Source of the DNA: Hymenobacter duratus
Lineage (GTDB): Bacteria; Bacteroidota; Bacteroidia; Cytophagales; Hymenobacteraceae
Length of the DNA stretch: 64,000 nucleotides
Assembly: GCF_014698995.1 (NCBI RefSeq)
Contig: NZ_JACWZZ010000002.1
Coordinates: 434,001 to 498,000, forward strand
Direction: 5' to 3'
In this document: positions 30,076-33,857 of the stretch, piece by piece
Layout: each line of letters starts with the position of its first letter
Position numbering within the stretch: the stretch's first letter is position 1
Translations under genes and position numbers: made by a program
The notes under the pieces: generated by a model
Databases searched by the model: none
What the model was told of the DNA's origin: nothing
The model's input: only the letters and a program-made list of their open reading frames with translations

Positions 30076-30304
30076 GCGAAGATAGGTAATGAGGGGATGG
30101 AGTGATGGAGTGAATGGTGAAATGAAGAACGTCATTCCGAGCGAAGGCGTAGCCGCAGCCGAGGAATCTCGCTAGTGTGGTAGCTACGCACGCGAGATTC
30201 CTCGGCAAGCTCGGAATGACGTTCTTCCACCTTACCTGTCACCTCTTACCTGTCACGTGTCACCATTTACCCCATCACTCCATCCCCTCATTACCTATCT
30301 TTGC
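30076..30304. repeat. Nested inverted repeat between pgk and ddl
   Basis: Outer arms 30076-30108 and 30272-30304 are inverted copies (32 of 33 bases). They enclose an inner hairpin element at 30124-30227 of the dispersed intergenic family (arms 30124-30141 with 30210-30227, and 30159-30172 with 30192-30205). Each outer arm carries a TATCTT(T/C)G element pointing outward, to pgk on one side and ddl on the other. Confidence 0.8.
30296..30303 (+). promoter_or_regulatory. Predicted -7 element for the double ddl gene
   Basis: TATCTTTG fits TAnnTTTG fully and ends 8 bp before the ATG, implying a leaderless or very short leader. No clear -33 TTTG is seen at the right distance, so confidence is moderate. 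Its mirror image at 30077-30084 faces pgk. Confidence 0.45.
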
Positions 30305-30311
30305 GCTACCT

Positions 30312-33011
30312 ATGAAAATTGGCATCTTCTTCGGCGGCCCGTCGCGTGAGCGGGAAATCAGCTTCGCGGGCGGCCGCACCGTATACGACAACCTCGACAA
30401 GGCCCTGTTTGAGGCCGTGCCGGTGTTTGTGGACAGTCGCGGCAACTTCATTCTGCTCGATTGGCACTACATCTACAAAGGCACCATCCGGGACTTCTAC
30501 CCGCCGGTTTCGGCGCTGCCCGCTTCCGAGCACAAGCTGCAGGTGTACCTGGAAAGCCTGGGCGAGCTGACACAGGCCGAGCAGGACCAGATTATCAGCG
30601 AAGTAGGCCGCCGCGTGCAGCCCCACGAGCTGCGTGAGCTGATGGATTTCGCTTTCCTGGCTTTGCACGGTCCGGCCGGCGAAGATGGCGCCATTCAAGG
30701 GCTGCTGGAGTGGTACGGTATTCCGTACTCGGGCTCCGGCATCCTGCCTTCGGCGTTTGGCATCGATAAGATTGCGCAGAAAAAACTGCTGCACGCACTG
30801 GGCCGCCCCACGCCCGCTTTCCGCGTCGTGACGGCCGAAGAGTGGGACGCCGCCGACCCGCAGGCTACCCTCGACTACCTCGTACGGGAACTGGGTTTGC
30901 CGCTGGTATTCAAGGCGCCGCGCCAGGGCAGCAGCATCGGCATCAGCATCCTGCGCGAAGCCGACGTGACCAAGTTTCAGGCGGCCATTGACCGCAGCCT
31001 GTTCCGCAAAACCGTGACCCGTGCCGACTGGCAGCGCCTTTCGGAGCGTGACAAGCTGGCCTGGGTGCAACACCTCACCGATATCCGCGACGGTATCGGG
31101 CTGCCGGTGGTGCTCGACGACGAGCCGACCATTATCTATCATCCCGAAACGCTGCTCACTACAGTTAGTGAGCGGCTCGAAACTGCTGAGGCGGTGCGCC
31201 TGACCAACGTGGATGGTGAGTCGCAGGTGTTGGTAGAGAGCTTCGTGCACGGCCGCGAGTTTTCGTGCATTGTGGTGGAAGACCCGAGCGGCAAGCCGCT
31301 GGCGCTGCCCCCCACGGAGATTGTGAAGGGTGAGGAGATGTTCGACTACCGCTCGAAATACCTGCCCGGTCTGTCGCGCAAAATCACCCCCATCGACCTG
31401 CCCGAAGCCGAAATCCAGCGCATCCGGGAGGCCTGCGAGGAAATGTTCACCACGTTTGGCTTCCAGGTATACGCCCGCCTCGACGGCTTTCTGGCTCAGG
31501 ACGGGCAGCTATTCCTCAACGACCCGAACACCACGTCGGGCATGCTGCCGGCTTCGTTCTTCTTCCACCAAGCCGCCGAAATCGGGCTCAATCCGTCGCA
31601 GTTCCTCACGTTCCTGATTCGCACGTCGGTGGCAGCGCGGCGGCGCGGCGGCATGCAGCCGGTGCGGCTGGCTGGCCTGCTCGCCCGCCTTGATGCAGCC
31701 GTGGCTTCGCGGGCCCACGAGGAGCGCACCCGCACCAAAGTAGCCGTAATTATGGGCGGTTACTCGTCGGAGCGGCACATTTCGGTGGAAAGCGGCCGCA
31801 ACATCTACGAGAAGCTCAGCTCCAGCGTCAAGTACGAGCCGGTGCCCGTGTTTCTGGCCGGCAACAGCCAAGAATTCCGCCTGTATGTGCTGCCCATCAA
31901 CGTGATGCTGAAGGACAACGCCGACGACATCCGGGAGAAAATAGAATACGCCGAGGCCGGCCACGAGCTGCACCCGGTGCTGGCCCGCATCCGCCGCGAG
32001 GCTGAGGCCATCACCAGCACCTACGCTGGCCAGGCCACGGCGCAGCCGCGCCGTGTTTCGTTCGAGGAGTTGGCCGACATGGTAGATGAGGTATTTATTG
32101 CGCTGCACGGCCGCCCCGGCGAGGATGGCGCGCTACAGCGTGAGCTGGAAAAGTTCGGGCTTCCCTACAACGGCTCGGGCGCCGATTCCAGCTCCGTTAC
32201 CATAAACAAGTTTGAAACGAACCGCCGCCTGCGCGAAGCCGGGCTGCGCGTGGCCGAGCACCGCATGGCCAGCCGCCTGGAGTGGCAGGCCGATGCCGAA
32301 GGCTTCTACCGCAGCCTCGAAACGCAGTTCCCCTACCCCTTCATTGCCAAGCCCGCCGACGACGGCTGCTCTTCGGCGGTGAAGAAAATTAAGACCCGCG
32401 CCGAGCTGCAGGCCTTCACCCGCCTCATCTTCCGCGACCAGGAAGACCTGATGCCCGAGGATGCTACCACGCTTAATCTAGGCTTCAAAGAGGAATTTCC
32501 GCAGAAGGATGCCTTCCTGGTGGAAACCCTGATTTCGCGCGACGGGGCGGCGCATTTCCTGGAAGTAACGGGCGGCCTGCTCACGCATTTCGGGCCCAAT
32601 GGCGAGCTGCAGATTGAGGTGTTTGAGGCTTCCGAAGCTTTGGCAACAGGTGAGGTACTGAGCCTGGAGGAGAAGTTTCTGGCTGGCGAAGGCCAGAACA
32701 TCACGCCTGCCCGCTACGCCCCGGAGCCGCAGGAGCGCCAGCGCATTTCGGAGGAAGTGAAAGCCGAGCTGAAGCGCGTGGCCGAAGTGCTCGACATCCA
32801 GGGCTATGCCCGCATCGACGCGTTTGTGCGGGTGCGCGACAACGGCGCCGTGGAGGTGCTCATTATTGAGGTGAACTCGCTGCCCGGCATGACGCCCGCC
32901 ACCTGCATCTTCCACCAGACGGCGCTGGCCGGCTACACGCCCTATCAGTTCATCGACCAGATTCTGGATTTTGGGAAGAAGAGAAGCGAAAAGCTGGCCT
33001 TGAAAAGCTAA
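30312..33011 (+). CDS. Tandem D-alanine-D-alanine ligase (two Ddl modules in one chain)
   Basis: 899 residues, against about 300-370 for a normal Ddl. Module 1 (about 1-440) starts MKIGIFFGGPSRERE. It has FLALHGPAGEDG, KAPRQGSSIG, FDYRSKYLPG (Tyr350 at the omega-loop position), ARLDG (Asp391) and LNDPNTTSGM (Asn406). Module 2 (about 474-899) starts VAVIMGGYSSERHIS. It has FIALHGRPGEDG, KPADDGCSSA, SLEEKFLAG (Phe789 at the omega-loop position), ARIDA (Asp836) and EVNSLPGM (Glu853, Asn855). Both keep ATP-grasp metal and ATP residues, though module 1 has Asp404 where Glu is usual. It joins two D-alanines for the peptidoglycan stem; module 2 may differ in acceptor use. The PASTA gene follows. Confidence 0.9.
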   Translation: MKIGIFFGGPSREREISFAGGRTVYDNLDKALFEAVPVFVDSRGNFILLDWHYIYKGTIRDFYPPVSALPASEHKLQVYLESLGELTQAEQDQIISEVGRRVQPHELRELMDFAFLALHGPAGEDGAIQGLLEWYGIPYSGSGILPSAFGIDKIAQKKLLHALGRPTPAFRVVTAEEWDAADPQATLDYLVRELGLPLVFKAPRQGSSIGISILREADVTKFQAAIDRSLFRKTVTRADWQRLSERDKLAWVQHLTDIRDGIGLPVVLDDEPTIIYHPETLLTTVSERLETAEAVRLTNVDGESQVLVESFVHGREFSCIVVEDPSGKPLALPPTEIVKGEEMFDYRSKYLPGLSRKITPIDLPEAEIQRIREACEEMFTTFGFQVYARLDGFLAQDGQLFLNDPNTTSGMLPASFFFHQAAEIGLNPSQFLTFLIRTSVAARRRGGMQPVRLAGLLARLDAAVASRAHEERTRTKVAVIMGGYSSERHISVESGRNIYEKLSSSVKYEPVPVFLAGNSQEFRLYVLPINVMLKDNADDIREKIEYAEAGHELHPVLARIRREAEAITSTYAGQATAQPRRVSFEELADMVDEVFIALHGRPGEDGALQRELEKFGLPYNGSGADSSSVTINKFETNRRLREAGLRVAEHRMASRLEWQADAEGFYRSLETQFPYPFIAKPADDGCSSAVKKIKTRAELQAFTRLIFRDQEDLMPEDATTLNLGFKEEFPQKDAFLVETLISRDGAAHFLEVTGGLLTHFGPNGELQIEVFEASEALATGEVLSLEEKFLAGEGQNITPARYAPEPQERQRISEEVKAELKRVAEVLDIQGYARIDAFVRVRDNGAVEVLIIEVNSLPGMTPATCIFHQTALAGYTPYQFIDQILDFGKKRSEKLALKS

Positions 33012-33071
33012 ACTGCTGGCCTTAGCGTTATTTGCCCCTCTCTCTTCCGCTTGCTCACTTCTATTCGTAAG

Positions 33072-33857
33072 ATGTCCTTTCTCAAATCTGATACGCCGCT
33101 TGACCTTGTAAAACACCTGCTGGTGATTGGCGTGGCCACGGCAGTACTGGTGTTCGGGTTCTTTTTCGTGTATCTGCCCCTCACTACCAACCACGGCGAA
33201 ACCATTGTGGTGCCCAAAATCACGGGCATGAACCAGGCCGACCTGGAAGACTACCTTGACGAGCGGAACCTGCGTTTCTACGTCGATGACAGCTCCTACA
33301 ATCCCGGCACGCGGCCCTTCACGGTGCTCAACCAGGACCCCGCCCCCGGTGAGAAGGTGAAGGAAGACCGGAAAATCTACATTACGGTGGCCATGAAAAA
33401 CCCACCCGTCATCAAGATGCCCAAGCTGACCGATGGCTCGGTGAAAAACGCCCAGATGATTCTGAGCAGCTACGACTTGGTGGTGGGCCAGATTAAGCTG
33501 GTGCCCAATATTCAGCAGAACGCCGTGCTGCGGCAGCTGGTAGGCGGTAAGGACATTGCACCCGGCGCGGCCATTGCCAAAGGCACTAAAGTCGACCTGG
33601 AAGTAGGCGACGGCCTCGGCAACCAGGAATTCCCGGTGCCTAACCTCATCAACATGCCCGCCGATGAAGCGACTACGCTGCTGGTAGGCCAGGGCCTGCA
33701 ACTGGGCGAAGTATTCTACCAGCCGGCTCAGGACGGCGAAACCGATGGCACGGTGGTGAAGCAGCGCCCCGTGGCTACGCCCGGCGCCACTATCCGCATG
33801 GGCCAGCTGGTTGATATCTGGGTGGCGGGCGACGAGCCGGTGAAGAGCGTTAACTAA
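33072..33857 (+). CDS. PASTA-domain membrane protein without kinase
   Basis: 261 residues from the ATG at 33072. A short cytoplasmic start and one helix (about 16-36, LLVIGVATAVLVFGFFFVYLP) are followed by three PASTA repeats (about 43-110, 111-180 and 185-255; each with a VP/MP-x-L/I opening and a G-x-x-V end). PASTA domains bind peptidoglycan or beta-lactams in Ser/Thr kinases and PBPs. Here there is no kinase or transpeptidase domain. It is 60 bp after the double ddl gene, so a cell-wall sensing or scaffold role is likely. Confidence 0.9.
   Translation: MSFLKSDTPLDLVKHLLVIGVATAVLVFGFFFVYLPLTTNHGETIVVPKITGMNQADLEDYLDERNLRFYVDDSSYNPGTRPFTVLNQDPAPGEKVKEDRKIYITVAMKNPPVIKMPKLTDGSVKNAQMILSSYDLVVGQIKLVPNIQQNAVLRQLVGGKDIAPGAAIAKGTKVDLEVGDGLGNQEFPVPNLINMPADEATTLLVGQGLQLGEVFYQPAQDGETDGTVVKQRPVATPGATIRMGQLVDIWVAGDEPVKSVN

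Follow-up and report, generated by a model that had tools for sequence, protein, structure and literature searches.

The window analysed here, a 64,000-nucleotide stretch of the Hymenobacter duratus genome (contig NZ_JACWZZ010000002.1, positions 434,001 to 498,000 of the forward strand), carries a gene for an 899-residue protein in which two D-alanine-D-alanine ligase (Ddl) modules stand in tandem. On sequence evidence, we consider it reasonably probable that this protein is the own D-Ala-D-Ala ligase of the order Cytophagales, tandem-duplicated and fused at the ddl locus, with two competent, non-equivalent sites per chain. The gene and its parts, in window coordinates, are as follows.

30312..33011, plus strand: tandem Ddl gene, 899 residues, stop codon included (reading frame, Pfam, NCBIfam, genome search)
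30312..31658, plus strand: module 1, a Ddl, residues 1-449, with Tyr350 and Asp404 (Pfam, alignments, fold match of the relative L056)
31659..31727, plus strand: inter-module linker, residues 450-472, with a helix at 450-469 (secondary structure of the model)
31728..33008, plus strand: module 2, a Ddl, residues 473-899, with Phe789 (alignments, fold match of residues 474-899)
31734..32081, plus strand: first half of the N-terminal domain of module 2 (~residues 475-590), which truncated lineages retain as a remnant
31908..31931, plus strand: LKDNADDI motif, residues 533-540 (invariant in 22/22 aligned fusions)
31359..31361, plus strand: Tyr350, module 1 counterpart of Escherichia coli DdlB Tyr216 (both alignments)
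31521..31523, plus strand: Asp404, module 1 counterpart of DdlB Glu270, a metal site (both alignments)
32367..32369, plus strand: Cys686, module 2 counterpart of DdlB Ser150 (alignment)
32676..32678, plus strand: Phe789, module 2 counterpart of DdlB Tyr216 (both alignments)
32901..32906, plus strand: Thr864-Cys865, module 2 counterparts of DdlB Ser281-Leu282 (alignment)

A first-pass annotation, made from the letters of the DNA, had described two complete Ddl modules in one 899-residue frame, and Pfam, TIGR01205 and the alignments bear this out. The whole protein matches the Pfam family Dala_Dala_lig_N in two stretches and Dala_Dala_lig_C in four, both families above cut-off, and reaches 353.3 bits against the NCBIfam model TIGR01205 (cut-off 245.65; the score is summed over both modules). 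The two modules share 98 identical residues over 397 aligned positions. Identity to E. coli DdlA and DdlB is 24.6-30.3% for each module, against 36.0% between DdlA and DdlB. The GTG at 30177 that opens the frame in the open reading frame list is a mere upstream extension, and relatives agree with the ATG at 30312. Right before this ATG, TATCTTTG at window positions 30297-30304 matches TAnnTTTG, a promoter element of Bacteroidota; the leader would be very short. A profile search of the H. duratus genome (PF07478 and TIGR01205) recognised the tandem gene as its sole Ddl. The remaining matches were frames of 355-1190 amino acids (aa) that, judged from their length, encode other ATP-grasp enzymes.

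We surveyed the fusion across Cytophagales, as the first-pass annotation had proposed. All 45 sampled genomes of the family to which H. duratus belongs (f1) had a match, with E values of 1.1e-271 or better and frames of 906-1389 aa. In the other families of the order, 83 genomes (counted as rows) had a match running from residue 1 or 2 to at least residue 886, giving a full-length fusion in 128 of the 291 genomes of the order. Beyond f1, the fusion occurs in f5, f6, f7, f9, f10, f14-f18, f20 and f22, in part of f21 and in three f19 genomes. Of the remaining genomes, 11 gave no match; the others have an ordinary Ddl, a reduced form or a partial match. From a separate named collection, the best 80 of 499 confirmed stretches were kept, and all counts of named loci refer to these. 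Their holders are Hymenobacter, Pontibacter, Rufibacter, Adhaeribacter, Rhodocytophaga, Sporocytophaga, Marivirga, Shiella and one Solirubrum, besides metagenome-assembled genomes whose names may be unreliable; a taxonomy look-up placed Marivirga and Shiella in Cytophagales. In a sample of the phylum (392 genomes at least 90% complete, 15 from the order and 377 outside it), a single genome outside the order carries the fusion (G462, same class, other family), and no second Ddl was found there with TIGR01205. The next best match outside the order had an E value of 1.5e-28. An artefact of assembly or gene merging is ruled out for practical purposes, its chance being vanishingly small, by the full-length match in the 128 genomes, some of them single-contig, and in the best 80 loci of the separate collection.

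To compare active sites, both modules were aligned with E. coli DdlA and DdlB (NC_000913), and a separate profile-profile alignment was made with hhalign (E values of 2.6e-89 for module 1 and 1.6e-77 for module 2). Counts refer to two sets with overlapping organisms. The first comprises 41 fusions, the extracted rows of 840-960 aa, with L083 (a PASTA fusion), L054, L059 and L067 (short, broken or at a contig end) and L001, L003 and L006 (copies of the window protein) left out. The second comprises 81 fusions from named genomes and further f21 genomes, with L155 (contig end) left out. Positions named without a module are those of DdlB.

Module 2 keeps E15, H63, K97, K144, E180, E187, K215, R255, D257, E270 and N272, each in 41/41 and 81/81 fusions. 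Module 1 keeps E15, K97, K144, K215, R255, D257 and N272, with Glu270 replaced by Asp as the sole exception (41/41). The intact catalytic residues in both modules argue against the earlier suggestion of a regulatory half, in the sense of a dead enzyme. The substrate pockets differ. Around the omega loop, module 1 reads FDYRSKY (Tyr350) and module 2 LSLEEKF (Phe789). Both alignments place Lys788-Phe789 on Lys215-Tyr216 in an ungapped stretch (LEEKFL against YEAKYL), so the claim of the first-pass annotation that Phe789 occupies the Tyr216 site holds. This Phe is present in all 41 fusions and all five separate module-2 genes of the first set, and in 81/81 fusions and 12/12 separate genes (one a broken copy) of the second. 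Module 2 further has Cys for Ser150 (41/41), Thr for Ser281 (41/41), Cys for Leu282 (39/41) and Leu at both the Tyr210 and Tyr212 sites (41/41). In module 1 the 216 site is Tyr (41/41), Pro275 is replaced by Ser (40/41) and Leu282 by Phe (41/41). The Ser150-Tyr216 pair with Glu15 is thus present in module 1 and replaced by Cys and Phe in module 2, in 41/41 fusions each.

Both alignments likewise put Asp404 on Glu270, confirming as a real, conserved change the Asp that had been noted at the usual metal-binding Glu. It is found in 41/41 fusions, 16/16 truncated forms and 4/4 separate module-1 genes of the first set, and in 81/81 fusions and 8/8 separate module-1 genes of the second. The named residues are conserved in these relatives and so, as far as alignments tell, are not special to the H. 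duratus genome. Among 29 single Ddls, Tyr stands at the 216 site in 28 and Ile in one. The latter is L084, a highly diverged 316-aa Ddl that G068 has in addition to a truncated form.

An AlphaFold2 model of the full protein, built from 22 aligned relatives (22 of the 41 fusions), had a mean predicted local distance difference test (pLDDT) score of 86.7 and a predicted template modelling (pTM) score of 0.86. Module 2 of the model (residues 474-899) was superposed, as the first-pass annotation had suggested, on LmDdl2, the D-Ala:D-Lac ligase of Leuconostoc mesenteroides (PDB 1ehi_A; Z 38.6, root-mean-square deviation 2.5, 344 aligned). This match is tied with those to D-Ala-D-Ala ligases, for instance 3q1k_A (Z 38.8). 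Because the omega loops are poorly modelled (pLDDT 55 in module 2), the pairing of Phe789 comes from the two alignments and not from structure. The listed rows of the full-model fold search span only residues ~471-899, and module 1 was covered through the model of a truncated relative, L056, whose residues 1-436 match 8evx_B (Z 31.4, root-mean-square deviation 2.0, 301 aligned).

Five residues of BpDdl (G77, G81, V95, A99 and D103) are described in PMC6899670 as conserved among the dimer-forming residues of solved Ddls. Mapped from spacing, they correspond to DdlB G70, G74, V88, A92 and D96. The window protein has G, G, I, A and D at these positions in module 1 and G, R, A, S and N in module 2. 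Since module 2 differs at four of these five positions as mapped, the idea of a standard Ddl dimer within one chain is weakened, and the tandem is probably not the usual homodimer.

Reduced genomes of family f21 (0.7-2.7 Mb) show the modules apart. Among the 21 searched, six have the fusion, 12 have the modules as two distant separate genes (module 2 is disrupted in one of these, G206), one has module 2 only (G094) and two have neither. The first-pass annotation had offered an obligate intramolecular pair; as stated, this is not supported, given the separate modules in 12/21 of these genomes, module 2 alone in G094, and three families that retain module 1 but not the module 2 ATP-grasp. The separate genes vary at some sites. 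The separate module 2 of G094 (L072/L215) and of G165 (L068) has Ser at the Ser150 site and keeps Phe at the Tyr216 site. A tie between Cys686 and the fused state was considered and is not clean, as other separate copies have Cys and the events are too few. Two separate module-1 genes (L052 and L055, from G022 and G038) have His63 replaced by Asn or Tyr, with the other catalytic residues kept.

A different reduction is seen in families f2, f4 and f11, whose 11, 13 and 45 matching rows have E values between 1e-157 and 1e-72, weaker than those of full-length fusions. The 16 truncated forms examined have a complete module 1 followed by ~90-165 residues homologous to the N-terminal start of module 2, without the module 2 ATP-grasp; 15 of the proteins have 550-635 residues. 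Pfam does not detect the remnant in L056. In the L056 model (pLDDT 88.5, pTM 0.89 for the whole), the remnant lies mostly at pLDDT 90-95 over residues 450-555, and its order of strands and helices is that of module 2 in the window model. The Lys of LKDNADDI and one His are nearly invariant across the remnants of 15 of the 16 forms (L053 left out). Searching with TIGR01205 at E 1e-10, we found the truncated form to be the sole Ddl-like gene in 14 of the 16 genomes. The exceptions are G068, with its second Ddl of 316 aa, and G010, with a weak 328-aa match; other matches were frames of ~450-1290 aa, by length other ATP-grasp enzymes. At the DdlB 282 site of module 1, 14 of the 16 truncated forms have Leu and two have Phe. 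We rejected a tie between this position and the loss of module 2, since the truncated rows form one clade and the change counts as one event at most.

These lineages bear on the idea that module 2 is the working Ddl and that module 1, with its Asp metal site and its Ser/Phe acceptor loop, is damaged or regulatory. Asp404, Ser409 and Phe416 do deviate from ordinary Ddls in full fusions, and G094 retains module 2 alone. However, module 1 is what the truncated lineages depend on (14 of 16 genomes have no other Ddl-like match), and its Asp is the same in 16/16 of them; Asp404 is thus no mark of a dead site, and we regard this idea as very improbable.

We computed a maximum-likelihood tree from 90 of 138 rows of modules and single Ddls (both modules of 24 of the 30 family f1 fusions were left out). 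All module 2 rows form one clade (support 100/100) on a stem of 2.67 changes per column. Module 1 and the truncated rows form another (100/98; stem 0.94), within which the truncated forms are monophyletic (100/99). All single Ddls, together with DdlA and DdlB, lie on the opposite side of one branch from both modules (100/94). An ancient duplication followed by strong divergence of module 2 fits this tree, with the caution due to long branches. Because the stem of module 2 is very long, and one single-Ddl row (L084) is long too, a duplication inside the order is likely, not proven. For the separation of the modules, parsimony gave three changes (2-3 over the bootstrap), of which well-supported branches force only one; two long branches meet in this part of the analysis.

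Selection was assessed as the ratio of nonsynonymous (dN) to synonymous (dS) substitution rates, leaving out pairs with saturated dS. Both modules are under purifying selection among 10 Hymenobacter genomes (45 pairs), with mean dN / mean dS of 0.130 for module 1 and 0.109 for module 2. The ratio was 0.135-0.188 for separate module-1 genes (11 unsaturated pairs of 28) and 0.118-0.275 for separate module-2 genes (26 unsaturated pairs of 45). One may ask whether the role of module 2 is chiefly structural or allosteric, with the module being lost and only the catalysis of module 1 mattering. This would suit the far longer stem of module 2 (2.67 against 0.94), its broken copy in G206 and the truncated lineages, where module 1 is retained and module 2 is reduced to a half-domain, predicted to fold, that lacks the ATP-grasp. 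Yet full fusions show no variation in the module 2 catalytic residues, constraint on module 2 within Hymenobacter equals or exceeds that on module 1, and G094 has module 2 while no module 1 was found. This explanation seems to us quite unlikely.

The first-pass annotation had linked Phe789 to D-lactate. In lactic acid bacteria, Phe or Tyr at the Tyr216 site sets depsipeptide versus dipeptide activity, according to PMC5996685, which also cites F261Y in Leuconostoc. The Phe is indeed at the site, as in LmDdl2. The rest of the pocket differs: by the chain letters of 1ehi, LmDdl2 keeps Ser150, Ser281 and Leu282, where module 2 has Cys, Thr and Cys, and LmDdl2 also has Tyr at the Tyr212 site and is a single module. 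Since LmDdl2 lacks the Tyr as well, the Ser150-Tyr216 pair with Glu15 is substrate-related rather than family-defining. The DdlB substitutions Y216F, S150A and E15Q reportedly affect the use of D-lactate.

Genome content points the same way. D-2-hydroxyacid dehydrogenase (PF02826) gave no match in 18 of the 19 reduced genomes carrying a module (G165 has a weak partial match), while alanine racemase is present in 18 of the 19, G094 included. The same PF02826 search gave 6-10 matches in each of four larger genomes. A search for MurF in 11 f21 genomes found it above cut-off in eight, G094 among them. Taking the pocket of module 2 and these dehydrogenase and racemase results together, D-lactate is unlikely as a conserved second substrate of module 2, and a Phe at the Tyr216 site may by itself be insufficient to predict D-lactate ends. 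Another acceptor is possible.

More broadly, and in line with the first-pass suggestion that the halves differ in acceptor, module 2 might ligate a second substrate other than D-Ala (D-lactate, D-serine, glycine or another), the protein then making two D-Ala-X products. In its favour, all aligned full fusions carry Phe and Cys at the Tyr216 and Ser150 sites, and Phe or Tyr decides the product type in lactic acid bacteria (PMC5996685). The idea is opposed by the Ser150, Ser281 and Leu282 equivalents of LmDdl2, none of which module 2 keeps, by G094, which has only module 2 beside MurF and alanine racemase, and by the lack of PF02826 in 18/19 reduced genomes, which leaves other sources of D-lactate and other acceptors. 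Van-type models also score far under cut-off (VanA 147.9 of 775 bits, D-Ala:D-Lac 189 of 550, VanG 227.9 of 495), and assignment to a Van-type ligase was rejected. We judge such a second product unlikely.

Downstream of the tandem gene lies a neighbour that recurs in relatives.

33051..33857, plus strand: PASTA-domain gene adjoining the tandem Ddl (Pfam PF03793, E 3.3e-26)

Using one PASTA protein as query (E 1e-3), we found a PASTA gene downstream of the fusion in 37/41 fusions and 66/80 named loci. Ordinary single ddl genes are followed by one in 6/29 cases (L078-L082, L104), and so are two of the separate module 2 genes, L070 and L071. In G462, the tandem Ddl, a hydrophobic segment and PASTA domains share one 1200-aa frame (L083:1742-5341), possibly through transfer out of the order.

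Several observations weigh against two competent, non-equivalent sites kept at this locus. Module 2 catalysis is gone in three families, where module 2 is thus dispensable, and one ordinary Ddl is found instead in most of f19, in the matching f8 genomes and in G002, G011, G047, G102 and G172. Where the modules are split, most pairs show weaker constraint on module 2 than on module 1. The stem of module 2 is very long and both hydroxyls of the Ser150-Tyr216 pair are lost, so its substrate may differ. Four of the five dimer-conserved residues differ in module 2 of the window protein. The omega loops (residues 341-350, pLDDT 50; 781-790, pLDDT 55) and residues 401-420 (pLDDT 64-66) are poorly modelled. 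The separate module-1 genes L052 and L055 are without His at the His63 site. G094 is 96% complete, and its module 1 could lie in the missing sequence. Finally, no PASTA match was found near 14/80 named loci, 4/41 fusions and 23/29 single ddl genes, and 0/16 truncated forms had one; the absences at single and truncated genes are weak, as the flanks are often ~1.5 kb or less and a single query was used.

We nevertheless favour the order's own tandem D-Ala-D-Ala ligase with two working sites. Lineages living on module 1 alone, and one seemingly on module 2 alone, suggest that each module can supply D-Ala-D-Ala to MurF, and each probably makes this dipeptide, a deduction from genomes in which a single Ddl was found alongside MurF and alanine racemase. 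Each site would use ATP to form the acyl phosphate of one D-Ala and join it to a second D-Ala, the product passing to MurF. The pocket of module 2 would be shifted (Cys/Phe/Thr/Cys) and still accept D-Ala. That the modules pack as a fixed asymmetric pair is suggested by their fixed differences, by conservation of the remnant and by the confidently predicted packing. The N-terminal half-domain of module 2, which outlives the loss of module 2 catalysis, would contribute to this pair and support module 1. The pair may act beside the adjoining PASTA protein.

More tentatively, this could be a peptidoglycan ligase with two co-dependent, non-equivalent sites, kept through much of the order. In one version the sites would take different second substrates, hence an unrecognised D-Ala-X precursor. 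In the other they would alternate as a built-in heterodimer, coupled by the module 2 half-domain even in truncated lineages. In either version, the whole would be recruited to the membrane PASTA protein.

Among known systems, the protein is close to DdlA and DdlB (TIGR01205). Both domains are found in each tandem module, together with the fold and the catalytic residues, and the tandem shares its locus beside a PASTA gene with six ordinary single ddl genes. It differs in having two non-equivalent modules per chain: Glu270, Pro275 and Leu282 are Asp, Ser and Phe in module 1, and Ser150, Tyr216, Ser281 and Leu282 are Cys, Phe, Thr and Cys in module 2, which also carries an additional segment containing LKDNADDI. 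The MurC-Ddl fusion (PRK14573) also joins a Ddl to another enzyme of the same pathway, but there the partner is MurC instead of another Ddl module, and the window protein reaches 174.5 of the 1015 bits that this model requires. CarB resembles it by description, as tandem, diverged ATP-grasp halves in one chain, whereas the modules here are Ddl by profile. The halves of CarB catalyse two successive steps joined by a tunnel. CarB is named as a protein with two ATP-grasp domains in the accessible part of PMC11915815, a study of archaeal pseudomurein genes in which that part holds no tandem Ddl.

We found no description of a tandem Ddl in the open-access literature (tandem, fused or order-specific Ddl, and the Tyr216 site), subscription papers being outside the scope; the fusion that the first-pass annotation flagged was not found as already characterised. 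We regard it as a variant of a known enzyme, apparently undescribed in that literature. Ddl has long served as an antibiotic target, that of D-cycloserine, and as a model of substrate choice changed by a single residue. Much of the order has a two-site Ddl, and lineages have lost either site, split them or, in G462 outside the order, joined them to PASTA domains. This series is a natural experiment on the role of the second site, in which the job of each half is testable, and it bears on whether the omega-loop Phe matters outside lactic acid bacteria.

A link between the number of Ddl modules and the number of MurF genes was also considered and dropped. Genomes with an ordinary Ddl (G035), a truncated form (G073) and the fusion (H. 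duratus, G000) each have a MurF of 439-514 aa and an 823-837-aa MurF/alanine-racemase frame. In H. duratus these are a 461-aa MurF frame and a separate 837-aa frame matching the MurF and alanine racemase C-terminal models; the coordinates of the two frames are C1:537903-540296 and C1:978909-980150, and several relatives are alike.

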